Origin: Leptolyngbya sp. PCC 6406
GTDB lineage: Bacteria; Cyanobacteriota; Cyanobacteriia; Phormidesmidales; Phormidesmidaceae
Assembly (NCBI RefSeq): GCF_000332095.2
Contig: NZ_KI913949.1
Coordinates: 3,556,596 to 3,620,595, forward strand
DNA length: 64,000 nucleotides
Direction: 5' to 3'
A program made the position numbers and the translations under genes. Positions 51,533-64,000 of the stretch are shown in pieces (position 1 is the stretch's first letter; each line of letters opens with the position of its first letter). Under the pieces are notes generated by a model that was not told the origin of the DNA, did no database searches, and was given only the letters and a program-made list of their open reading frames with translations.

Positions 51533-52308
51533 TGCTCCCAGGTCTCATGTCCTAACGGAGCGTACGCGAGTAGGTCGCGCCGGATGCGCCAGGGGGGCAA
51601 AAACTCATCCATCAGGGCTTTGAAGCGGTCATTGTGATGACGTTCGAGCAGGTGCACGAGTTCGTGAACCATCACGTATTCCAGGCACTCGGGGGGCTTT
51701 TTGGCTAGCTCTAGGTTGAGCCAGATGCGGCGCTGCTGACTGTTACAACTGCCCCACTTAGTTTTCATTTTCTTGACGCCCCAGGCGCTAACCTGTTGGC
51801 CAATGATCGGCTGCCAGAACACTAGCAAGGGGGGGATACGAGCTTTGAGCTGCTGGCGATACCACTCGATTAAAACCCTAGTTCGGTTTGCGGGGGTGGT
51901 GCCAGGATTCACAAACAGTTGGAGGGTACTGTTGTTTTTCACAACCACCTCGTGGCGACCGCGCCGTTCGATCACCTCCAGGCGATAGCGCTGGCCAAAC
52001 AGGTAGTGGCTCTCGCCGCTGACCATTTCTCGCGCTGACTGGCGGGGCTGAGCCTGAAACGCCGCCTGCTGCTTGCGAATCCAACTGAGACGGGAAATTA
52101 CGGCGAGGCGAATGTTGTCGTCGGTGAGGTGTTCGGGAGCCGAGACTCGCACTTGGCCATCGGGGGGGTAGACGCCCAGGTGCAGATTTTTGATCGGCTT
52201 GCGCATGACCTGCACGGGAATGTCGCGAATCACGATGGCGGTCGTCCCGGCGGCTGGATTAGGAGCTGAATTGGGGGCTGGATCTAAGGTGAGACTATTG
52301 GTACTCAC
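51529..52308 (-). CDS. YgjP/SprT-like M48-type metallopeptidase
   Basis: The 259-residue protein has the zinc motif HELVH at 215-219 with a third ligand candidate at His224/225 (ERHHNDRF) and the preceding KWGSCNSQQRRIWLN, which are hallmarks of the DUF45 (YgjP) metallopeptidases. These genes often follow hsdR in type I restriction loci; their role is unknown. The GTG at 52308 overlaps the end of hsdR by 14 bp, so translation is coupled. The N-terminal 25 residues are Ala/Pro-rich and variable. The stop abuts the integrase stump. Confidence 0.88.
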   Translation of the reverse strand: MSTNSLTLDPAPNSAPNPAAGTTAIVIRDIPVQVMRKPIKNLHLGVYPPDGQVRVSAPEHLTDDNIRLAVISRLSWIRKQQAAFQAQPRQSAREMVSGESHYLFGQRYRLEVIERRGRHEVVVKNNSTLQLFVNPGTTPANRTRVLIEWYRQQLKARIPPLLVFWQPIIGQQVSAWGVKKMKTKWGSCNSQQRRIWLNLELAKKPPECLEYVMVHELVHLLERHHNDRFKALMDEFLPPWRIRRDLLAYAPLGHETWEH

Positions 52309-55300
52309 GTTGGTTCTTTAGCAATTCCATCACCTGGTCGAGGTTGACATTGTAGCCTGCGGATTCTTCGCGCACGGCGCGGGCCACTTCTCGTTCTTTG
52401 AATTTGTTGCCAATCCAGTCAGCTTTCTTGGTGTAGCGTACCGCTGTGTCGATGCGCAGAGCTAAGGCTTCATTTTGGCCCAAGTTGTCGTAGAGCGATC
52501 GCTTGGCTGGGGTATCCAGGGATGTGGGATAGCTGTCTAGGTCAGCGTCAGCAGCGGGCTTGACTTGGCCTGCAAGCTGTTTCACCTGCTCTAGGTACTC
52601 CTGGTAGCTGATGGCCTGTTGTCGTCGTTGCTGGATCAGAGCGTCCAGCAGCTCGGACATGCGATCGTAGTATTTGGGGTTGACCGGGCTTTCCTCGGTG
52701 ATCACCCGCCGCAAGTTGTTCTCGATGGTTTCGGCTACGGCATCTTGGTTGTCGCGGATGCCCTTGGGCAGTTGCTCACAGGCAGCGGTAGTGCCTCGCT
52801 GGACGATCAGATCGATCAAGCCCATCTCGTCGAGGTCGGAGATGGTCTCGCTGGGGTCGGCGCGAATGTAGCTGTCGAGCAGGCGGCGCATGGCGGGCTC
52901 GTACTGCTTCATGTCGATGTAGTCGCCGCTGGCAATTTTGACCTCGTGGCCCATCGTTTCATAATGCTTGACCTCGGCCTGGATGGTGGCGATTTCCTGG
53001 GGCGAGTAGCCTGCTGCGGCCATTTCGTTGGCCAGGTTGGCATAGGCGCGTACCAGGGCCGCGACTACCTGGTAGAGGGCGACGCGCTTGGGTTCGTTGG
53101 CGGCTAGGGCGGTTTTGTCGGCGGTGTCTTCGGCGCAGAAGTAGTGCAGGTAGTCGAGCCTTTCGCGGGGCAGGCGCACGGGCTCGCAGAGGGCTTTGAC
53201 CTGTTCGCGCAGGTCTTCGAGGCGATCGCGGCCTTTTTCAATGCGATCGCACAGCAGTCCAGCGACATCCTCGGCGTCATAGTTCTCGAACGCGCCGCTG
53301 GTGTAGTCGGTGATCGCCCCCTCTAGGGACTTAAACAGGTCTTTGTAGTCCACGATGTAGCCGTATTCTTTGTCGTCGCCGTCGAGGCGATTGACCCGGC
53401 AAATGGCCTGAAACAGGCCGTGATCCTGCATATTTTTGTCGATGTAGAGGTAGGTGGCGCTGGGGGCATCGAAGCCGGTGAGCAGCTTATCCACCACAAT
53501 CAGCAGGCGCATCTGGCCCGGTTCTTTTTTGAAGCGATCCTTCACCTGCTGTTCAAACTCTGCCACCCGGTGCATGGCCCGGTCTTCGGGTTCATTAAAG
53601 TACTCCGCTAACATGCGGCGGTAGATGGCGTACTGGTTCAGCTTCTCGGTTTCGCCTTCGCCGGTTTCTTCGCCTTTGATGTCGGCGGGGCCGGGTTTGT
53701 AGCTGGTGACGATCGCACATTTCCCCGCCAGGTCAGTATGGCTGAAGATCTCGTAGATTTTGCAGGCTTGGTAAATGCTGGCGCACACCAGGATGGCGTT
53801 ACCGCGCCCGTCCATCAGCCGGGGCTTGGTCTCCATATCCATCAAGATGTCGTTAGCGATCATCTCCAGGCGCGACTGGCTAGAGAGCACGTTGCGCATT
53901 GTGCCCCAGCGCTTTTTCAGTTGTGACTTGGCCAGTTCTGAAAGGCTGCGGGTTTTGGCCTCAAACCACTGATCGACTTTCTGCTGGGAGGTGAGGTGCT
54001 GGTCAATGTCGCGAGCCTCGTAGCGCAGGTCGAGCACCACCCCGTCGCTGACGGCTTCATCAAATTTGTAGGTGTGGATGTAGGTGCCGAACACCTCTAG
54101 GCTGGTCTGTTGGTCGGCTTTGAGCAACGGCGTACCAGTAAAGCCGATGAACATGGCCCCCGGCAGCAGGGTGGTCATGGCGGTGTGGAGCTTGCCTGAC
54201 TGGGTGCGGTGGCACTCGTCTACAAAGACAAACAGGTTGCCCTTGGGGCTAAAGTTGCTGGGCAGGTTGCGCTGTAGGTCTTGAATGAATTCGTCTGTGC
54301 TCTGGCTGGAGTCGGCCTCGTCGCGGTTGCCGAATTTGTGGACGAGGGAGCACAGCAGCCAGGGAGTAGGGCTGTTGAGTTTGGCGATCAGGTCGGTGCC
54401 GCTGGTGGTGCGGTAGATGGCTTCGTCTACGCCGTGGAAGACGCCTTCAATTTGTTCGTCTAGTTCGGTGCGATCGGTGATGATCAACACGCGGGCATCG
54501 GTGGCGTTTTCGCGCAGCCACTTGGCCAGCCACACCATGGTCAAGCTTTTGCCTGAGCCCTGGGTGTGCCAGATAATTCCCCCTTCGCGCTGCGGCACCC
54601 GCTGCTGGGCGGCTTTGATACCGAAGTATTGGTTGTGGCGGCAGGTCTTTTTGATGCCTGCATCAAAGACGGTGAAGTCATGGATCAGTTCGAGCAGGCG
54701 ACCTTTGGCACAGAGGCGCACCAGGGCGGTGTCGAGGGCATTGTCGCTAATCGCGGGGTCGATGGTGGGTAGGTATTTGTGGCTTTTGGGGTCGGTTTTG
54801 GGGGTGTAGCGGGGGTTTTCTTCTTTCCAGGTGAGGTAATACTTCTCGGCGGTTTCGATGGTGCCGTAGCGCAGGCCCTGGGTGTCGTTCCCGGCCATGA
54901 CGAGCTGCTGGGTGGTGAAGAAGGCGCGGTTAAACTCTTTGCGCTGGTTGTCGAGGTTTTGGCGAATGCCTTTGGCGACATCGACGCTGCCCTTTTTCAG
55001 TTCAAGAATGCCCAGGGCAATGCCGTTGACGTAGAGCACAAGGTCGGGTCGGCGGTTGTTTTGGCCTTTGAGGGTGACTTCTTCGGCCAGGGCAAAGTCG
55101 TTATTTTCGGGCTGCTGCCAGTCGATGAGCGGTACGGTCTGGGTTTGCTCTCCGGCTCCGGCTTTGACTTTGATGCCGTAGCGCAGCAGGCCATAGACGG
55201 CTTTGTTGGCGTCGTAGAGGTTTTGGCTATCGCCCAGGGCGGCGGCTTGGTCTAGCTCCCGCAGGGCTTTGGCGATCAGGGTTTCGCTAACGCCCTGGCG

Positions 55301-55450
55301 GGTGAGCCACGATCGCAGTAGGTCGGCCTCGATGTTGCGGTTGTTGGGGCGGGCCTCCCAGTTGCCTAGGTAGCGGTAGCCTAGGTGGGTTTGAAACAAC
55401 TGGACGACTCGATTTTGGGTGGCTCGTTCCCGTTGGCCGACGGTGCTCAC
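52295..55450 (-). CDS. hsdR: Type I restriction enzyme R subunit HsdR
   Basis: HsdR is the translocating and cleaving subunit of a type I restriction-modification complex. From the GTG at 55450, which has AAGGAG 8 bp upstream, it has 1051 residues. The PD-(D/E)XK nuclease is at RRPDLVLYVNGIALGILELKK (about 133-153, split as PD 135-136 and ELK 150-152). Helicase motifs are GSGKS (298-302), DECH (411-414) and FTGTP. All look intact. The frame is open to 55567, but the extra 39 residues lack a ribosome binding site. hsdM and hsdS lie 5-8 kb away on the same strand, separated by foreign genes. The length fits the family. Confidence 0.93.
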   Translation of the reverse strand: MSTVGQRERATQNRVVQLFQTHLGYRYLGNWEARPNNRNIEADLLRSWLTRQGVSETLIAKALRELDQAAALGDSQNLYDANKAVYGLLRYGIKVKAGAGEQTQTVPLIDWQQPENNDFALAEEVTLKGQNNRRPDLVLYVNGIALGILELKKGSVDVAKGIRQNLDNQRKEFNRAFFTTQQLVMAGNDTQGLRYGTIETAEKYYLTWKEENPRYTPKTDPKSHKYLPTIDPAISDNALDTALVRLCAKGRLLELIHDFTVFDAGIKKTCRHNQYFGIKAAQQRVPQREGGIIWHTQGSGKSLTMVWLAKWLRENATDARVLIITDRTELDEQIEGVFHGVDEAIYRTTSGTDLIAKLNSPTPWLLCSLVHKFGNRDEADSSQSTDEFIQDLQRNLPSNFSPKGNLFVFVDECHRTQSGKLHTAMTTLLPGAMFIGFTGTPLLKADQQTSLEVFGTYIHTYKFDEAVSDGVVLDLRYEARDIDQHLTSQQKVDQWFEAKTRSLSELAKSQLKKRWGTMRNVLSSQSRLEMIANDILMDMETKPRLMDGRGNAILVCASIYQACKIYEIFSHTDLAGKCAIVTSYKPGPADIKGEETGEGETEKLNQYAIYRRMLAEYFNEPEDRAMHRVAEFEQQVKDRFKKEPGQMRLLIVVDKLLTGFDAPSATYLYIDKNMQDHGLFQAICRVNRLDGDDKEYGYIVDYKDLFKSLEGAITDYTSGAFENYDAEDVAGLLCDRIEKGRDRLEDLREQVKALCEPVRLPRERLDYLHYFCAEDTADKTALAANEPKRVALYQVVAALVRAYANLANEMAAAGYSPQEIATIQAEVKHYETMGHEVKIASGDYIDMKQYEPAMRRLLDSYIRADPSETISDLDEMGLIDLIVQRGTTAACEQLPKGIRDNQDAVAETIENNLRRVITEESPVNPKYYDRMSELLDALIQQRRQQAISYQEYLEQVKQLAGQVKPAADADLDSYPTSLDTPAKRSLYDNLGQNEALALRIDTAVRYTKKADWIGNKFKEREVARAVREESAGYNVNLDQVMELLKNQREYQ

Positions 55451-55576
55451 GGCTGTGCTCCTTGATGGGTGCCCGAGGTTGGGCTGCTTAACCAGTGTTC
55501 CCCAGTTATAGCAAGCCGTTTTTGGGCCAATCACTCGTTTGGGAAATGCCTCACGAAAACCAGACATTACCCGAAC

Positions 55577-56278
55577 TCATGCTGCCAGGGGAATTTCGCA
55601 CCGGATGGCTTCTTCGATCTGGCTGAAGTCACAATCGTAGTCTTCGACCAGGTCTTGCAGTGAGTCTCCAGCTTTGTACCGCTCGGCGATGATGTGGGTG
55701 GGGATGCCGGTGCCGTCGATGACCAAGCGACCGAAGGCGATGCGGGGGTCGATGACGACGATGCGGGGGTTGTGGGCTTCGTCGGAGCGGGTGAAAGGGT
55801 AGAGCTTGATGGCGAGGCCGGTGTCGTCGGGTTCGATGCGCTCTAGGTGTTGGGTGAGCACGGCTTTGAGCTGGGTTTGGCCCTGGGCAGAGGCGTTGAT
55901 CAGGGTGCCATAGCGCTCGATGAAGAGGCTAATGCCGTCGGTGCGAAATTCTTCGTGGGCTAGGGGGTGGGAGACCTGGAGCTGGGCTTCGAGGTAGTCG
56001 AGGGCGGTGCGGACGTTGTCGAGCTGAATTTTGTGGTGTTTGCGGATGGCGCGTAGAACGTGGATCTCGATCAGGTTGGTGAAGGAGAGCAGGCGGGGCG
56101 TTTGTGGGGGAACGGCGATCAGGGGCTCGAAGAAGCGTTTGCCCTGGCTGACGGGGTATGAGCGGCCAACTGTCCACGACCGAATGGTGCCCACGGGAAT
56201 GCGTAGGTAGCGGGCGGCATCGGGGAGGGTGTAGGTGGAGATGTCTCTCGGGTCGCGACCCTGGTAGAGATCGGTCAT
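55577..56278 (-). CDS. DUF433 protein with N-terminal HTH
   Basis: The 233-residue protein has an N-terminal helix-turn-helix of the MerR/AlpA sort (YTLPDAARYLRIPVGTIRSW, about 16-35) and a C-terminal DUF433 domain with RIVVIDPRIAFGRLVIDGTGIPTHIIAERY (split: RIVVIDPRIAFG, GTGIPTHIIAERY) and GDSLQDLVEDYD. DUF433 proteins are often antitoxin-like and pair with PIN-fold toxins; no PIN gene is next to it. It lies 126 bp before hsdR on the same strand and could regulate it. An hsdS tail fragment lies 77 bp upstream. Confidence 0.8.
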   Translation of the reverse strand: MTDLYQGRDPRDISTYTLPDAARYLRIPVGTIRSWTVGRSYPVSQGKRFFEPLIAVPPQTPRLLSFTNLIEIHVLRAIRKHHKIQLDNVRTALDYLEAQLQVSHPLAHEEFRTDGISLFIERYGTLINASAQGQTQLKAVLTQHLERIEPDDTGLAIKLYPFTRSDEAHNPRIVVIDPRIAFGRLVIDGTGIPTHIIAERYKAGDSLQDLVEDYDCDFSQIEEAIRCEIPLAA

Positions 56279-56354
56279 GGTGGCCTGGATAGTTCAGGGA
56301 TGGCTCTCATTATCAACCAGATAGGGGAATCGGAATAACTTATACCAACAGCAC

Positions 56355-56438
56355 TCACCCGGTAAGGATCTGCTGAATCATGCCCTGGTTGATGGCCTGT
56401 TTTTTGGCGCAGTGGGTCTCTAGGGGGGCGATCGCCCC
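56355..56438 (-). pseudogene. hsdS 3'-end fragment 1
   Basis: On the minus strand this stretch encodes AIAPLETHCAKKQAINQG followed by MIQQILTG and a stop (TGA at 56357-56355). It aligns with the C-terminus of the complete HsdS at 60558, which reads ALETRRTKTQAIKQG and MMQQLLTG. At least 15 of 23 positions agree. It has no start codon and is a decayed tail. It lies between the PD-(D/E)XK gene (ending 56445) and the DUF433 gene (starting 56278). Confidence 0.85.
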
Positions 56439-56444
56439 CCTTTT

Positions 56445-57668
56445 CTATCCCTGGGCTGTCCCAAAGGCTTGCACGATCGCCTCATCAATTCTAGGTAGCT
56501 CATTGGTAAGGAACTGCTGCCAGAACTGCCGCACGTCGTCTTCAATGTCACTGATAAACATCTCCGGGCGAAGGTCTTCGGAGATGATTCTTTCGACGAG
56601 AGCCAGCCATTTCACTTCTGGGCTCGGCTGTTGTGTGGTGAATCCGAGGATGTTGTGGTCTTTGATGGATAGGTAGATTGATTGGCGAATATTGGGATCG
56701 CCTGGTCCGAGGCAGAGAATGAGCTTGAGAATGGGGGGCTCGACATGGAACTGAAGTAGCAGAATTCGTTGCGATTTCGTCCAGCCTTGGCAGCTTGTAT
56801 AAGCAGGAAAGTCATCCCACCTGGGAACGGAAAAGCTGAGGATCTTTCTCGCGGTCCAGCTATCGTCAAAAACGATCTGATCCGGTGAAGCCTCGTTCAC
56901 CAACTTTTTGACCAGCTTATAGGCTTCGATATCTAGGGCCGGACGATGCTCGTAGATGAGGTCGATCGCTGCCTGATGCTTTAGGTAGATATCGCGGCAG
57001 AGCTTGGCGATTTCGGAGTCTTCCATGAGGTGTCGGTTGATGAGGGTGCTGTAGTGCTGCATGAGGGTGCAGACTTCGGGCTGGAGGGTGGCGCGGTGAC
57101 GATCGCACACCTCCCCAATCAAGTCTGCGACTTTGCGATAGCTGTAAACGCACCAGTGCTCTTGGTCTGCTTCGCCATCGGGAAAGATGCCTTGGGGCGT
57201 GAGGAAGACGAAGATTTGGCGGTAGTTGGGGAATTCCTGCTGAACGATTTGGCGGTAGCGCTGGAGCTGGTTAGAGTGCTCACCAGAATCGACCTTGTTC
57301 TCAATGGCACAGACGATTTGGCTACCGGGGGAAACCAGCAGGATGTCGATATTTTTCCACTCGCGGCGGACTTCGGTATCGGTGAGATCGGCAATGTCAA
57401 TGTCGATGGGGCTGACGGTGGCGTTGTTGGCTCCTAGCAAGAGCTGTTTGAGGAAGGCTTTGAGAAAGATATCGCGGAGGTGATGGGGAGCGTTGGGGTT
57501 GAGCAGGAAGGAGAGGAAGCGGGAGTGGCGGATCTCCTGCCGCACCATGCCCACGGCTTCAAAGATGTTGAACTGGTTGAGCAGGCTTTCTAGGCGTTCG
57601 AGGTCGGCGTTATTGACGACGAGCTGCTCTAGCAGCTTTTGGGGATCAGGGGCGGGCATATTCATCAT
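56445..57668 (-). CDS. PD-(D/E)XK nuclease superfamily protein
   Basis: The 407-residue protein has the active-site pattern of PD-(D/E)XK nucleases: WKNIDILLV with Asp108, then CAIENKVDSGEHSNQLQRY with Glu123 and Lys125. RHSRFLSFLLNPNAPHHL (about 48-65) is typical of the PDDEXK_4 family found in defence islands and prophages. The rest is helical and of unknown function. Its ATG overlaps the TGA of the truncated PIN toxin frame (TGATG at 57670-57666), so it is translationally coupled to that stump and the antitoxin upstream. Confidence 0.82.
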   Translation of the reverse strand: MMNMPAPDPQKLLEQLVVNNADLERLESLLNQFNIFEAVGMVRQEIRHSRFLSFLLNPNAPHHLRDIFLKAFLKQLLLGANNATVSPIDIDIADLTDTEVRREWKNIDILLVSPGSQIVCAIENKVDSGEHSNQLQRYRQIVQQEFPNYRQIFVFLTPQGIFPDGEADQEHWCVYSYRKVADLIGEVCDRHRATLQPEVCTLMQHYSTLINRHLMEDSEIAKLCRDIYLKHQAAIDLIYEHRPALDIEAYKLVKKLVNEASPDQIVFDDSWTARKILSFSVPRWDDFPAYTSCQGWTKSQRILLLQFHVEPPILKLILCLGPGDPNIRQSIYLSIKDHNILGFTTQQPSPEVKWLALVERIISEDLRPEMFISDIEDDVRQFWQQFLTNELPRIDEAIVQAFGTAQG

Positions 57669-57775
57669 CAGCTATCGGTATCGGCTTGAGCGATGAGCGT
57701 TTGAAGATTGCTGGAAAGCCGTTGGTCTTCTAAGGCATACCAGAGCCAGATGTGGGTATCGAGGAGTAGCTTCAC
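57668..57775 (-). pseudogene. Truncated PIN-domain (VapC-like) toxin
   Basis: A 35-codon frame begins with GTG at 57775, overlapping the antitoxin stop by 4 bp (GTGA). It encodes KLLLDTHIWLWYALEDQRLS, the classic first strand and helix of a PIN toxin with the first acidic active-site Asp. The frame stops after QADTDS, about a quarter of a normal VapC (about 130 residues), and the stop overlaps the nuclease start. It cannot be an active toxin. Confidence 0.85.
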
Positions 57776-58035
57776 TGAAGAACTTCCCAATCGCTTTCGG
57801 GCACTGCCGGGGAAATGATGTCGCCATGAATGACACCTGTGCCCTTCATGAAACCAAAGGCTGGGCGGTGGGGGCGGTTGGCAGGTTCAGCGTGAGACTC
57901 ACGATTTTGGATGAGTTCGTCTTTTAAGGACTGGAGCAGCAGCTCAATGACAGCAATGCGTTCTTCAATTGAAGCGCCATGCAGTTGATTCAAGATATCT
58001 ACGTCTAGCATGACCTGTGCCTCGTCGTTAGTCAT
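57772..58035 (-). CDS. VapB-type antitoxin A
   Basis: The 87-residue protein has a leading half with LDVDILNQLHGASIEERIAV and a C-terminal tail with RPAFGFMKGTG and SDWEVLQ, the layout of antitoxins that precede PIN toxins in cyanobacteria. It overlaps the truncated PIN frame by 4 bp. A paralogue at 59003-59224 matches it at about 32 of the first 41 positions. Upstream of the ATG is an hsdS tail fragment, whose stop TGA overlaps the ATG. It is now an orphan antitoxin. Confidence 0.8.
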   Translation of the reverse strand: MTNDEAQVMLDVDILNQLHGASIEERIAVIELLLQSLKDELIQNRESHAEPANRPHRPAFGFMKGTGVIHGDIISPAVPESDWEVLQ

Positions 58036-58079
58036 TGGCTGGCTGAGGCAATTGTAAGGCGCACTCGTCCGGTGAGGCG
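58032..58079 (-). pseudogene. hsdS 3'-end fragment 2
   Basis: The minus strand reads RLTGRVRLTIASASQ and stops at TGA (58034-58032), which overlaps the ATG of antitoxin A. RLTGRVRL corresponds to LLTGKVRL at the end of the complete HsdS, and its DNA agrees at 21 of 24 positions with fragment 3. It is short, but the match and position are the same as for fragments 1 and 3. Confidence 0.65.
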
Positions 58080-58126
58080 ATCGCTGTCGTTAAACCCCAA
58101 AAGTCTAGCGGTTCCATCCCCAATCC

Positions 58127-58363
58127 CTAGGATGCCGCAATGTATTGATAGGCGCGGGCTTTGGCTAGCCGCAGCAGGTGTTCTAGCATCAGGTACTGAT
58201 CTAGCTCGGCTTTTTCTTCGGCGGTGAGGGCTGCTGTTTTTTCACGAAAGATCAAATCGGCGACCTGCTCTTTTGCCACCTCAGAGGGCTGGAAGTTAAT
58301 CAGGCTTTGGGGGGTGGTGCCTGCTGCAATGAATTCAATAATTTCTTCGTATGCCCTGGTCAT
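58127..58363 (-). CDS. Small helical protein, antitoxin-like, unknown
   Basis: From the ATG at 58363 it has 78 residues: TRAYEEIIEFIAAGTTPQSL, then SEVAKEQVADLIFREKT, LTAEEKAELDQYLMLEHLLR and a C-terminal ARAYQYIAAS. This is the layout of short cyanobacterial proteins commonly found as stand-alone or first genes of toxin-antitoxin-like pairs. No partner follows it here. The ATG at 58378 is an alternative start. Function is not known. Confidence 0.7.
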   Translation of the reverse strand: MTRAYEEIIEFIAAGTTPQSLINFQPSEVAKEQVADLIFREKTAALTAEEKAELDQYLMLEHLLRLAKARAYQYIAAS

Positions 58364-58405
58364 GGCGGTGGGAGGCATTGGTGCGATCGCACTATTTCGG
58401 TGAAC

Positions 58406-58550
58406 CTAGTACTCTGCGGCGGAAATACCCTGGCCGTTCTATCGTGGCACACTCGGCCCCTCACCCTAGCCCTCTCCCAAGGGGAGAGGGGACCGGAAAA
58501 TGTTGGGCTGACGCGACAATAGTGGACTGATTTACGCCCTGCGGTACTAG
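58406..58550. mobile_element. 144-bp MITE-like element, copy 3
   Basis: This 145-bp copy begins CTAGTACTCTGCGGCGGAAA and ends TTTACGCCCTGCGGTACTAG. It matches copy 1 along its full length with few differences and lies between the antitoxin-like gene and mazE. No coding capacity. Confidence 0.82.
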
Positions 58551-58613
58551 CTCAATCTTAAGGGGTGTCCATTGGTGCTGGCCAAGCTCTGATACTTAAG
58601 ACTGGCTAGGATG

Positions 58614-58628
58614 TTATACAAAGTATAA
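58614..58628. promoter_or_regulatory. Candidate operator before mazE
   Basis: A perfect palindrome TTATAC-AAA-GTATAA (58614-58628) lies 13 bp before the mazE ATG. It overlaps a TATAAT-like promoter element. MazE-type antitoxins repress their own operon through palindromes of this size, so it may be the autoregulatory site. Confidence 0.5.
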
Positions 58629-58640
58629 TTTCTTGGCAAC

Positions 58641-58892
58641 ATGGATATTCAGCTTAAAAAGTGGGGCAATAGCCTTGGTCTGCGAATTCCCCATCGGCTG
58701 GTGGAGAGCTTTGGGTGGGATGAAAACTCTACGGTCGAAATGCTAGAGGTGGATGGGGCGTTGGTGATCCGTAAGAAAGCGGTGGCAACATCCCTCGATC
58801 AGCTGTTGGCGAGTATTCCTGCCGATTTTCGCTATTCCACTGATGTGGATCATTTTATGAACAGCGGGCCACAGGGACAAGAATTGCTATAG
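58641..58892 (+). CDS. mazE: MazE/AbrB-type antitoxin
   Basis: The 83-residue protein opens MDIQLKKWGNSLGLRIPHRL, the swapped-hairpin AbrB DNA-binding fold of MazE antitoxins, and has LEVDGALVIRKK. The C-terminal tail, which would bind MazF, ends DVDHFMNSGPQGQELL. It is on the plus strand, against its neighbours, with its own palindrome-containing promoter. The downstream mazF is truncated, so this antitoxin has no functional partner in the window. Confidence 0.85.
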   Translation: MDIQLKKWGNSLGLRIPHRLVESFGWDENSTVEMLEVDGALVIRKKAVATSLDQLLASIPADFRYSTDVDHFMNSGPQGQELL

Positions 58893-58907
58893 CGAAGGAG
58901 AGCATGA

Positions 58908-59030
58908 ATGCAGCTTCGCCGAGGTGAGGTGATTCGCGTCAACTTGAACCCGACCCAGAGTAGAGAGCAAGTGGGTATCCAGGACAATCATGCTGATGCT
59001 TCTCAGTCTTCGGCAGCGACGGGCTCGTAG
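58908..59030 (+). pseudogene. Truncated mazF toxin gene
   Basis: From the ATG at 58908, 15 bp after mazE, the frame encodes QLRRGEVIRVNLNPTQSREQ, the well-known MazF N-terminus. After about codon 27 the sequence leaves the MazF family and runs antisense into the end of antitoxin B, stopping at 59030. A deletion with its joint near 58980-59003 has removed at least 75 codons of the toxin. Confidence 0.85.
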
Positions 59031-59224
59031 GGATCTTCGTAGGAGCATACTGTGCCGCGAAGAGGACGCTGTTCAGCGCTAGATTGGGCGTTGCTAGCAC
59101 GAAGATCCTGCTTGAGGGACTTCAGAATCATCTCAATGACGGCAATGCGTTCTTCGATTGAGGCCCCGTTCAGTTGATTCAAGATGTCTGTGTCTAACAT
59201 GACCGGTGCCTTGTCGTTAGTCAT
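59003..59224 (-). CDS. VapB-type antitoxin B, C-terminally cut
   Basis: From the ATG at 59224 it has 73 residues and shares LDTDILNQLNGASIEERIAV with antitoxin A. Where A continues to a full tail, this one stops after EDPYEPVAAED, about 14 residues short, at the same joint that cuts mazF. Its toxin partner is missing. In the same frame the upstream DNA reads LLTGRVRLTKP (hsdS fragment 3), so an hsdS tail is fused in frame to it. Confidence 0.72.
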   Translation of the reverse strand: MTNDKAPVMLDTDILNQLNGASIEERIAVIEMILKSLKQDLRASNAQSSAEQRPLRGTVCSYEDPYEPVAAED

Positions 59225-59266
59225 GGGCTTGGTAAGGCGCACCCGCCCGGTGAGGAGCTGCTACAT
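59225..59266 (-). pseudogene. hsdS 3'-end fragment 3
   Basis: The minus strand reads ATG, TAG, then QLLTGRVRLTKP, continuing in frame into antitoxin B. The complete HsdS has MMQQLLTGKVRL here, so a CAG codon seems to have become TAG. The ATG overlaps the stop of the zeta partner gene (TGA at 59268-59266). Together with fragments 1 and 2 it shows repeated hsdS ends at cassette borders. Confidence 0.78.
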
Positions 59267-59532
59267 CACTTAATCACCTCATCGTATTGGGTGGTGTCGT
59301 CATCTTGCTGCTGTTCCATAGCCCCAAATATATCTTCTAAGGAAGTTTCATCAACCCATGCTCGACGCTCTTGGGTATAGTCGGCTGGGGCATCGTCGCC
59401 AATGATTAGAGGTTTGCCATCGCGCCAGATAACGGCATAGTGGCCCAGGCGGCGTTTGCGCTCTAGGGTATCGGCGGCAACTTGTCTTAGGGTCTCTAAG
59501 ATTTTTTGAGTGTCGGGGGGAATGCGGGTCAT
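59266..59532 (-). CDS. Small partner of the zeta-like ATPase
   Basis: The 88-residue protein begins with a helical stretch ([20 protein letters not shown]) followed by [20 protein letters not shown], which recalls small proteins accompanying zeta-like toxins in cyanobacteria. It overlaps the upstream zeta-like gene by 4 bp (ATGA), so the two are translationally coupled. It may be the antitoxin of the pair; this rests on context only. An hsdS tail fragment starts at its stop codon. Confidence 0.72.
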
Positions 59533-60113
59533 TGTTCTGCCTCCTGGGTTAGCTGCTGGAATAGTTCAGGATTAAGGATTTCGCGGGTTTCCCCTTGCTG
59601 GATGAAGACGGGCTGGGGAGTGTCGCCGTTGTTCATAAAGCATTGGGTACGGTCAACGGCATGGCTGAACTCATGGAGCAGGTTTCGCAGGCTGCGGGGA
59701 AAGCGGCGTTCGATGTCTTCTAGGGGGATGTTGTGACCACCGTGGGCAACTCGCTCGGCAACTCGCAGTCTAGACAGTTCTACACTCGGCAGGGCCAGGT
59801 AAATGAGTTCTACTCGCCACCCTTCTGATCGTAATCGTCGGATGAGCCTGAGATAGCTGCGACCCGCCAGGGTGGTTTCAAAGGCAAAGTCTTGTCGGGC
59901 CTGGATGCGGTTTTCGATTTCTCGAAGAAAGATGCGGCTGGCGGCCAGTAGTTCGGCTTCTGGGGCTAGGGGCGACAGGCCAGCGGCGATCAGGTCAGCG
60001 TTGACGAAGTTACGGCAGTTGGCGGCAGTGGGCAAATAGGACAGGGCAAAGGTGGTTTTGCCTGCGCCGTTGGGGCCAGCGATAATCCAGCAGGTGGGGG
60101 GAGCAATGAACAT
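59529..60113 (-). CDS. Zeta-toxin-like P-loop ATPase
   Basis: The 194-residue protein has a Walker A motif [12 protein letters not shown] (11-22) and the zeta-family order: [33 protein letters not shown] and [21 protein letters not shown]. Zeta toxins phosphorylate UDP-GlcNAc and block cell wall synthesis; many chromosomal relatives have unknown targets. The Asp and Glu next to the nucleotide site (NADLIA, FET) are present. It is the first gene of a two-gene unit with the small partner. Confidence 0.83.
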
Positions 60114-60541: not shown

Positions 60542-60570
60542 TATCAATTGTCAATTATTAATTATCAATT
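60541..60570. repeat. CAATTGA-type short tandem repeat, border 2
   Basis: The run TTATCAATTGTCAATTATTA and its continuation lie between the S23-type gene and hsdS. It overlaps the first codon of the former and supplies the last codons and stop of hsdS (GIDN). Confidence 0.85.
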
Positions 60571-61874
60571 CCCTCATCCAACAATCTCACTTTCCCCGTT
60601 AACAACTGTTGCATCATGCCTTGTTTGATGGCTTGGGTTTTGGTGCGGCGGGTTTCTAGGGCAGAGATCGCAGCATCCATGTCGGAGAGGACAGTTGCGA
60701 TCGCACGTTGTTCTTCAAGCGGCGGCAAGCATAGTTGTAATCTTGCTAAATTCTTTGCCTGAATATGAACAACAGCATCTCCTTGGCCCATTCTTGCCTT
60801 CTGCCTAACAATCGACTCGTGATTCATGAGATATCCCAAAAACAATGAATCTTGATTTTGAGGGGAAAATATAACTATATCACCCCCTGCATAAGTCATC
60901 TTTTCATCGAGAAAGGCCACACATTTACCTATTTCTTCAGACGTTTCACCTGAACCAGTGAATAAGAGATCGCCCTTCTTTAAAGACTGACATTGACTAG
61001 CAACTTCTGGCGATATGAACGAATATATTTCTCGAATAAAATCATGATGTCTAGTATAAATTTCTCCGTACCTGATGCAGGGTAATCCATAATCTAAGAC
61101 TTCATCTTTTCTGATTCCTGCTCCTTTTGAGAAGCTTCCCAGCTCACTAAGCTCAACACGAAGCCATTTTTCACCAAACCCCGGCAGGCGTTTCTTGCCG
61201 GTGAGGAGTTGCTGCATGGTGGCGGTTTTGAGGTGGCGTTGCTTGGCGATGAGCTTGTCTAGCGCGGCAATCAGGGCATCTACGTCGGATAGGGTAGTTG
61301 CGATCGCGCGTTGTTCTTCAGTAGATGGCATAGGAACCAACATTTGCCGCAACTTAGCGCCGCTGATTTTCGGCATGCTCCCCGTAGAACCTGCGGCAGC
61401 GCTTAGGAAAAAGCGTCTACCATTTGCGCTATTTGCATACTTCCAGAACCAGTGGGCAGTCAATCTATTGCTGAATCGCAACCGCATCATCAGGTCTGGA
61501 TAGACGTATATACTAGGTGGCCCATTGAAAACAGCAGTCGTTCCAACAAGCTCATAGGTATTAGATCTCTGAATCAGAACGTCACCTGGCTGTAAGAATA
61601 GTTCTGATCCTTGATGTATGGTTTCATCTAAATGTTTTACAGTCTCATTATTGATAATTAAGTAGCCAGACGAAGTGGCTGTGAGTCGTAAGGTTGGAGT
61701 CCCTTTCGCGTCTTCTCCTACTTGACCTGAATAACCATTCTTTGGACCAGAAGTAATCAAGCGAGCTAACTCTACAACATCCCAATCCTCAGGAATCACC
61801 CCAACCTCAGTCTGCTTATAGCCCTTGGGTAATTGATAATTAATAGTTGATAATTGATAATTCGACACGTCCAC
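60558..61874 (-). CDS. hsdS: Type I restriction enzyme specificity subunit HsdS
   Basis: HsdS recognises the bipartite DNA target of the type I complex. The 438-residue protein has two target-recognition domains (about 20-180 and 230-390). They are separated by the conserved EEQRAIATTLSDVDALIAAL and LKTATMQQLLTGKKRLPGF, and closed by the second repeat EEQRAIATVLSDMDAAISAL with MMQQLLTGKVRL. The recognition domains look more AT-rich than the flanks, consistent with exchange between strains. The start is a GTG at 61874; residues 5-15 (NYQLSTINYQL) are translated from an AT-rich tandem repeat, so a start closer to GYKQTEVGVIPEDW is possible, though no ATG is there. Confidence 0.93.
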   Translation of the reverse strand: MDVSNYQLSTINYQLPKGYKQTEVGVIPEDWDVVELARLITSGPKNGYSGQVGEDAKGTPTLRLTATSSGYLIINNETVKHLDETIHQGSELFLQPGDVLIQRSNTYELVGTTAVFNGPPSIYVYPDLMMRLRFSNRLTAHWFWKYANSANGRRFFLSAAAGSTGSMPKISGAKLRQMLVPMPSTEEQRAIATTLSDVDALIAALDKLIAKQRHLKTATMQQLLTGKKRLPGFGEKWLRVELSELGSFSKGAGIRKDEVLDYGLPCIRYGEIYTRHHDFIREIYSFISPEVASQCQSLKKGDLLFTGSGETSEEIGKCVAFLDEKMTYAGGDIVIFSPQNQDSLFLGYLMNHESIVRQKARMGQGDAVVHIQAKNLARLQLCLPPLEEQRAIATVLSDMDAAISALETRRTKTQAIKQGMMQQLLTGKVRLLDEGIDN

Positions 61875-63109: not shown

Positions 63110-63142
63110 TAATAATTAATAATTGACAATTATCAATTATTA
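63110..63142. repeat. CAATTGA-type short tandem repeat, border 4
   Basis: AT-rich array TAATAATTAATAATTGACAA and its continuation between yhcG and the duplicated hsdM end. It supplies the TAA that ends the hsdM-tail fragment. Confidence 0.82.
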
Positions 63143-63194
63143 ATTCCACTCCGACCCCATCTTTTTCAGGTGCTTCGCCACCCGGCTCGTTAGC
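63140..63194 (-). pseudogene. Duplicated hsdM 3'-end fragment
   Basis: The minus strand reads LTSRVAKHLKKMGSEWN and a stop (TAA 63142-63140). The real HsdM ends LSSRVEEHLKKMGLVWD. At DNA level 63153-63194 matches 63690-63731 at 37 of 42 positions in direct orientation. The fragment has no start and lies in another frame from the overlapping end of the DUF2283 gene. Confidence 0.85.
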
Positions 63195-63402: not shown

Positions 63403-63686
63403 TCTGTTCTCCAATATTTCTGCACCTTGCTCGTGCGATATACCGTAATCACCACAGGCGGATCGATCTGCTCATCCACCACGACCCGAATTAAATAGAC
63501 CCTTTCCACTTCCCCCTCCTCAACTGGCATCTGGATAGAGCGAGACTGGTAAATAGTGCGATTCTCTTGACCCGCTACCACTTGCTCTGGGCCGTTCAAG
63601 ATGCTTTCTACAATCACACGATGGATATCACGCCGATCCATCTCCTGTAGGGCATGGTTCGAGAAGACATAGGAAGTCAATCCCAT
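63399..63686 (-). CDS. DUF4258 protein (probable toxin)
   Basis: The 95-residue protein shows FSNHALQEMDRRDIHRVIVE, LNGPEQVVAGQENRTIYQS and PPVVITVYRTSKVQKYW, the DUF4258 pattern, which recalls small RelE-like or BrnT-like RNase folds. Its activity is not established. It overlaps the end of hsdM by 10 bp on the upstream side and the DUF2283 antitoxin by 4 bp on the other, so all three are translationally coupled. Confidence 0.85.
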   Translation of the reverse strand: MGLTSYVFSNHALQEMDRRDIHRVIVESILNGPEQVVAGQENRTIYQSRSIQMPVEEGEVERVYLIRVVVDEQIDPPVVITVYRTSKVQKYWRTE

Positions 63687-64000
63687 ACCAACCCCATCTT
63701 CTTCAGGTGCTCCTCCACCCGGCTCGATAGCCCCTCCACCGTCTGCACCAGTTCCGGCAGCGGCTCCGCGTAGCGCTCCTCCAAATCCTTCACCCGGTTC
63801 GCCAACTGCTGCGTCACCCGCTCAATCTCCGCCGCCACGGCCCCCTTCAGCGTGGCCTGCCACTTGTCCTCCACCACCAGGGCTTTAATCTCCGCCTCGC
63901 TCAGCTTCGAGTACTGACCAAACACCGCTTTATCCAGCGCTTCGGTAGCGGCCTTCACCGCCTTCTTCATCGCCGCCTCCTGGTCAAACAGCTTTAGCAC
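63677..64000 (-). CDS. hsdM: Type I modification methyltransferase HsdM, C-terminal end (partial)
   Basis: The frame enters at the right edge of the window and encodes the last 107 residues of HsdM, the methyltransferase subunit: KLSEAEIKALVVEDKWQATL, AVAAEIERVTQQLANRVKDL and the end LSSRVEEHLKKMGLVWD. This helical tail follows the catalytic domain in HsdM and contacts HsdS. The catalytic motifs lie outside the window. The stop overlaps the DUF4258 start by 10 bp. Confidence 0.88.
   Translation of the reverse strand: MLKLFDQEAAMKKAVKAATEALDKAVFGQYSKLSEAEIKALVVEDKWQATLKGAVAAEIERVTQQLANRVKDLEERYAEPLPELVQTVEGLSSRVEEHLKKMGLVWD

Follow-up and report, generated by a model that had tools for sequence, protein, structure and literature searches.

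A vapC remnant between an orphan antitoxin and a PD-(D/E)XK nuclease gene in a type I restriction-modification locus of Leptolyngbya sp. PCC 6406

Within the window analyzed here, a stretch of 64,000 nucleotides of Leptolyngbya sp. PCC 6406, an intact antitoxin gene (antitoxin A) is followed by a vapC-like frame of 35 codons and then by an intact gene for a PD-(D/E)XK nuclease. We consider it probable that the short frame is the scar of toxin purging in a restriction-modification locus with reshuffled accessory genes, that A is apparently still selected, likely as an antidote, and that the nuclease is independent. Judging from related genomes, the window most likely documents a toxin loss with the antitoxin spared, one of many that arose independently, and not a new toxin-antitoxin pair.

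The surroundings are those of a type I restriction-modification locus, as hsdS, hsdR and the end of hsdM are all present together (Table 1). The gene order is the hsdM end, a DUF4258/DUF2283 pair, a DUF1016/YhcG nuclease gene, hsdS, a 23S-IVP protein gene, a zeta-like kinase gene and its 88-aa partner, followed by antitoxin B, mazE, an 83-aa ORF, A, the vapC stump, the PD-(D/E)XK nuclease gene, the HTH-DUF433 gene and hsdR.

Table 1. Features of the window, state of vapC at antitoxin loci that lack an intact toxin, and lone copies of the hsdS 3' end.
Feature	Position	Strand	Remark
hsdR	52295..55567	minus	PADLOC; next beyond HTH-DUF433 in locus order
HTH-DUF433 protein	55577..56278	minus	Pfam; antitoxin-like
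hsdS 3'-end copy	56352..56435	minus	between nuclease and HTH-DUF433; left edge at HIP1 GCGATCGC
PD-(D/E)XK nuclease gene	56445..57668	minus	PDDEXK_4, PADLOC candidate PDC-S26; intact, 407 aa
vapC stump	57668..57775	minus	35 codons + stop; GTG overlaps A stop, TGA overlaps nuclease ATG
antitoxin A	57772..58035	minus	87 aa, intact (ORF and relatives); tail FGFMKGTGxIxGDIxSPxxPESDWEVLQ as in VapC-bearing relatives
mazE antitoxin	58641..58892	plus	intact, toxin gone
mazF stump	58908..58976	plus	23 codons, 86-91% to 5' end of complete MazF (L106-L111); meets opposite-strand vapC-B stump
vapC-B stump	58968..58991	minus	8 codons (MIVLDTHL)
antitoxin B	59003..59242	minus	79 aa, intact, toxin also gone
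partner of zeta-like kinase	59266..59532	minus	88 aa, no Pfam family; named from position alone
zeta-like kinase	59529..60113	minus	Pfam; open frame
hsdS	60558..61874	minus	PADLOC
hsdM 3' end	63677..64000	minus	MTase_I, model positions 706-810 of 810; cut by window end
vapC, window A			35 codons left
vapC, window B			8 codons left
vapC, G017:C362			last 15 codons left
vapC, G030 and G054			11 codons, one common event; start lost in G054
vapC, G082			TGA at codon 48
vapC, G124			TAG at codon 12 and a cut near 33; second antitoxin follows
vapC, G334			about 5 codons, then kinase-like gene
vapC, G099			25 codons left
vapC, G376			B type, 8 codons left
vapC, G212			TAG at codon 36
no recognisable vapC			G050 (antitoxin itself frameshifted); G077; G151 (hsdR-like gene next)
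lone hsdS 3' copy, window	56352-56435		
lone hsdS 3' copies, L043	114-188, 1435-1545, 2416-2482		
lone hsdS 3' copies, L044	2877-2956, 3995-4079		
lone hsdS 3' copy, L006	1380-1487		
lone hsdS 3' copy, L061	155-272		
lone hsdS 3' copies, L096 and L097			

The vapC stump and its junction with the nuclease gene

Antitoxin A ends in CAG TGA, across which an internal GTG starts the 35-codon frame VKLLLDTHIWLWYALEDQRLSSNLQTLIAQADTDS. The A that closes the TGA of this frame is also the first letter of the nuclease start codon ATG (TGATG, at 57668). Aligned with a full VapC of 129 aa, the frame is 71% identical to residues 1-35 (E 2.6e-10) and is therefore not a chance ORF. That VapC, from locus L043, is a PIN protein (PF01850, 3.7e-16); a PDB search with it gave no useful match. 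The stump alone hit no Pfam family, as expected at 35 residues. The initial annotation had described A as kept, overlapping the GTG of a truncated VapC-like frame whose TGA overlaps the nuclease start, and both the sequence and the VapC match bear this out. Behind A, the window contains only this stump and no complete PIN-domain toxin. Moreover, a search of the same genome with the full VapC returned only the stump and two distant PIN-like matches (29% and 36% identity). By this search, A is thus without a cognate toxin in its own genome; A itself is intact and has 93% identity with its counterpart in the intact L043 pair.

The last codons of the stump, GAT AGC TGA, resemble the end of vapC in relatives (ATT AGC TAA or TAG), which makes an internal deletion likelier than replacement of the 3' three quarters of the gene by the nuclease. 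The stump looks like an internal deletion of vapC, whose exact endpoints in the window are not fixable as there is no close undeleted relative. HIP1 is absent from the A-stump-nuclease joint.

Two relatives bear on how this joint arose. L043, from Leptolyngbya ULC186bin1 (G053:C37), is the closest relative with an intact A-vapC pair. Its order is hsdS 3' copy, nuclease, hsdS 3' copy, A, complete vapC, hsdS 3' copy and HTH-DUF433, so that the nuclease gene lies upstream, on the other side of A from vapC and behind an hsdS 3' copy. A complete vapC in a relative with the nuclease elsewhere had been named at the outset as evidence against the proposed pairing of A with the nuclease. L043 has this arrangement, but the A-nuclease order itself is shared by Halomicronema CCY15110 (G017:C362, locus L045). 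There, zeta, its partner and an antitoxin with a B-like front joined to an A-like tail come first; of vapC only the final 15 codons follow, with no start, and then the nuclease gene. Hence, the expectation that other genomes carry A directly before the nuclease holds for one of them, with an A-tailed antitoxin, but the vapC remnant in that genome is the opposite end from that kept in the window.

The junction reads TAGCTAATGATGA in G017 and TAGCTGATGATGA in the window. Over a wider stretch, the joints are ACAATTAGCTAATGATGAGTGAG and ACCGATAGCTGATGATGAATATG, respectively, with TAGCT(G/A)ATGATGA in common, amounting to about 13 shared positions. In three of the four complete genes compared, vapC ends in ACCATTAGC, ACGATTAGC or ACAATTAGC plus a stop, and the last codons of the window stump are thus most simply the vapC end. 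Given the common junction and the opposite remnants, the nuclease gene was probably appended at the vapC stop before vapC was cut, and the toxin was then lost separately in the window and G017 lineages. No extant operon of A, complete vapC and nuclease was found among the genomes searched, and we infer this ancestor from the short common junction.

The initial annotation had instead supposed that a nuclease took the place of three quarters of the toxin. Insertion of the nuclease gene, or of the DNA carrying it, into vapC would fit with the vapC 5' end being the only part readily recognisable before the nuclease. However, the last codons of the stump read like the vapC 3' end, and its junction agrees with that in G017, a genome that keeps this 3' end before the nuclease; nor did the search of the same genome with full VapC turn up a 3' piece displaced to beyond the nuclease. 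We consequently regard such a displacement as quite unlikely, and the claim of replacement is not sustained.

Under the deletion model, a vapBC pair would have come to adjoin a PD-(D/E)XK nuclease gene that had stood alone, inside a type I restriction-modification locus with reshuffled accessory genes, where, judging from the common junction, the nuclease start would have come to lie at the stop of a complete vapC. An in-frame internal deletion of about 280 bp would then have taken the catalytic body of vapC in the window lineage, and a separate deletion would have removed the 5' part in the G017 lineage. The surviving deletions would be those confined to the toxin, since loss of the antitoxin before the toxin would leave the latter unchecked. 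Once toxinless, the antitoxin would have been maintained by selection, most likely for its use as an antidote to an incoming VapC of the same family, and translation of the nuclease may still be coupled by way of the stump.

A further reading, compatible with a scar, is that the stump is functional, as a leader that feeds the nuclease start and is kept as a 5' cistron. The GTGA and TGATG overlaps on both sides of the stump agree with it, as does the amino acid identity of the first 15 codons with L043 despite changes at 8 of 10 synonymous sites; the dN/dS of the stump is unusable, synonymous sites being saturated against L043. Yet the conservation of these 15 codons also fits selection before toxin loss, stumps elsewhere range from about 5 to 35 codons, one of them without a start, and the vapC remnant of G017 likewise has no start codon. 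A leader function is therefore unlikely in our estimate.

The nuclease with and without antitoxin A

The nuclease matches PF14281 (PDDEXK_4) at 1e-30, with 107.5 bits against a curated cut-off of 22.3, and PADLOC PDC-S26 at 4.6e-147 (488 bits). A PDB search gave no useful match for it, and a literature search for PDC-S26 found no paper. It is present in 9 of the 63 family genomes and 19 of the 388 class genomes, own genome included. Its dN/dS is about 0.2 to relatives, and on this ratio the gene is under selection.

To count as a nuclease place, the gene start and upstream DNA had to be in view, which was so for 17 of 22 places (about 250 bases only in L050 and 100 bases only in L055); broken or edge places (L002, L003, L009/L011, L061) and L060 were left out. 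Upstream ORFs of at least 55 aa were judged by reading their translations, without profiles. An A-type antitoxin or a vapC remnant stands directly upstream at two of the 17 places, the window and G017, and is absent at the other 15. At L059, the nuclease is preceded, at a distance of about 335 bases, by the end of a VapBC-like pair that is unrelated. A conserved association of A with the nuclease across lineages, beyond that of toxinless A generally, was thus not found.

These counts tell against the proposal of a new pair, in which A would bind or repress the nuclease and the stump would serve translational coupling. In its favor, two genomes that differ in their vapC deletion both have A before the nuclease, the stop/start overlaps preserve coupling, and conservation is stronger in A than in the nuclease (dN/dS 0.07 vs 0.2). 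But close relatives of the nuclease (L043, L006 and L050) have no A directly upstream, most nuclease genes in the 388 class genomes stand alone, and toxinless A, with its broken vapC, also adjoins unrelated genes. In addition, the tail that A has kept is the part conserved in genomes where VapC is still present, which suggests a VapC-binding role. We hold such a pair to be very improbable and did not retain it; the nuclease gene is intact and, in our reading, independent and probably defensive.

One-sided toxin loss and selection on orphan antitoxins

The toxin side was examined at 34 of 60 A/B-type antitoxin places, those with sequence available (L046, at a contig end, lies outside this count), and 8 further places have an intact vapC according to the VapC search. 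An intact vapC is present at 20 of the 34 loci; at another 11 the gene is cut or interrupted, and at 3 it is not recognisable, which leaves 14 of 34 without an intact toxin (Table 1). Their neighbors are varied: the gene after the stump is the nuclease in the window and G017 only, and elsewhere a DUF4058 gene (PF13267), a kinase-like gene, a second antitoxin or others.

In two genomes (L016 and L017), an orphan A with an 11-codon vapC stump stands beside a DUF4058 gene, with strong purifying selection on the antitoxin. In other families (L126/L128), a toxinless A-type antitoxin is flanked by hsdS-like and hsdR-like genes in G124 and is immediately followed by an hsdR-like gene in G151, these neighbors being named from reading translations.

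As a reverse control, 376 class genomes were searched with the complete VapC (E<=1e-30), which gave 28 A-type hits. Twenty-four of them are intact, and all 24 have an antitoxin directly upstream, recognized by the tail pattern in 18 cases and by the coordinates of antitoxin matches in 6 (G036, G311, G292, G163:4506, G205 and G229). The other four comprise two with a nonsense codon behind the antitoxin, one at a contig edge and one with both genes damaged (G308). The PD-(D/E)XK nuclease is nearby at a single hit, in G053. Since all 24 intact toxins keep their antitoxin while 14 of 34 antitoxins lack an intact toxin, loss is one-sided, as addiction predicts. These loci show the frequency and direction of toxin-antitoxin decay inside one antitoxin family.

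The window itself contains further losses. Antitoxin B ends before 8 codons of its own vapC, and mazE is followed by a mazF stump that is 86-91% identical to MazF of 111-123 aa in six loci, L106-L111 (PF02452 in L107). The 40-aa ORF holding this stump gave nothing in Pfam or PDB searches and was identified by comparison with complete mazEF loci. The mazF and vapC-B stumps meet at GTGGGT, a 6-nt microhomology that fits both genes (58641-58991 region). It appears that one deletion between two convergent toxin genes removed mazF and vapC-B and spared both antitoxins. Within about 1.6 kb (57668-59242), three antitoxins outlive three toxins.

In their front parts (57914-58049 and 59103-59238), the genes of antitoxins A and B are 80% identical over 136 nt, a likeness that suggests gene conversion.

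Selection after toxin loss could be gauged in G030 and G054, one genome pair in which the nuclease is absent. Because they have the 11-codon stump in common, their antitoxins have most simply been toxinless since before they diverged. Over 80 codons, 7 of the changes between them are synonymous and 1 is nonsynonymous (dN/dS 0.035), against about four fifths nonsynonymous (189 of 240 sites) expected if such changes were free. Between A of the window and A of L043, there are 26 synonymous to 9 nonsynonymous changes (dN/dS 0.068), a ratio that mixes the times before and after toxin loss. The orphan antitoxin thus seems to be still under selection, and of the options first put forward for the stump, we favor that of a scar. 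Furthermore, the best-kept part of A, FG.MK.TG.I.GD, is the tail common to VapC-bearing genomes, which makes an antidote role the simplest inference: orphan A would probably counter the VapC of incoming same-family copies, in the manner of anti-addiction. Orphan antitoxins have been considered as possible anti-addiction modules without being demonstrated to be in common use as such, according to PMC7354431, and PMC2654758 and PMC7167474 treat the decay of chromosomal toxin-antitoxin systems (ccdO157) and the same idea. The loci described here offer natural orphan antitoxins, some apparently selected, as material for it.

hsdS tails, HIP1 and comparison with known systems

Outside full hsdS genes, lone copies of the hsdS 3' end (41 residues, ...LETRRTKTQAIKQGMMQQLLTGKVRL) occur at 10 places in 7 of the 63 family genomes, a count made from reading open-frame lengths. 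They precede the nuclease, A-vapC or relatives, HTH-DUF433 and other accessory genes. The left edge lies at HIP1 in 8 of the 10 copies, with related junctions counted separately; sorted by eye, the junctions fall into about 7 distinct types, of which 5 lie at HIP1. The chance of 8 in 10 is about 5e-6 if 1 in 7 positions is counted as a hit, a figure weakened by the relatedness of some junctions. In L043 and L061, the nuclease end is joined to the hsdS tail at the first HIP1 of that tail; in the window, the same nuclease end meets the tail's second HIP1. A nuclease end found at two different HIP1 sites, together with the HIP1 edges, points to exchange at HIP1.

The hsdM gene has a similar copy: a 53-nt repeat of its 3' end (63142-63194 vs 63679-63731, 85%) follows the DUF4258/DUF2283 pair and stands to this pair as the hsdS copies stand to other accessory genes.

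Tentatively, the locus might be an exchange array, in which toxin-antitoxin and nuclease genes are added as well as swapped at the hsdS 3' end by recombination at HIP1, each unit with its hsdS tail, while toxins are purged and antitoxins kept, leaving a library of antidotes and defense nucleases. We see this as possible rather than probable. Should HIP1-bounded hsdS tails be exchange sites, they would give a role to a palindrome of unsettled function.

Compared with VapBC type II systems, the window likewise has an antitoxin with a conserved toxin-binding-like tail followed by an overlapping PIN-domain gene, but only 35 codons of about 129 remain in this gene, which presumably lacks all the acidic positions of the PIN domain except the first. 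The nuclease belongs by profile to PDDEXK_4 / PDC-S26 and its gene is intact; such nucleases are usually encoded by a single gene without A, whereas here the gene stands behind A and the stump. Decaying chromosomal toxin-antitoxin systems and orphan antitoxins such as ccdO157 (PMC2654758, PMC7167474 and PMC7354431) are alike in having a dead toxin, a remaining antitoxin and a proposed antidote role. Unlike them, the present case involves a PIN toxin, a type I restriction-modification locus, about ten separate losses in one family and a candidate defense nuclease downstream. Finally, HIP1 was earlier linked to site-specific and illegitimate recombination in cyanobacteria (PMC4390886). Among the papers listed by literature searches, no description of HIP1-bounded hsdS tails was found, and none of the matches listed pairs HIP1 with hsdS. 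In both settings GCGATCGC lies at recombination joints, but here the joints connect accessory genes to copies of the hsdS 3' end in a restriction-modification locus.
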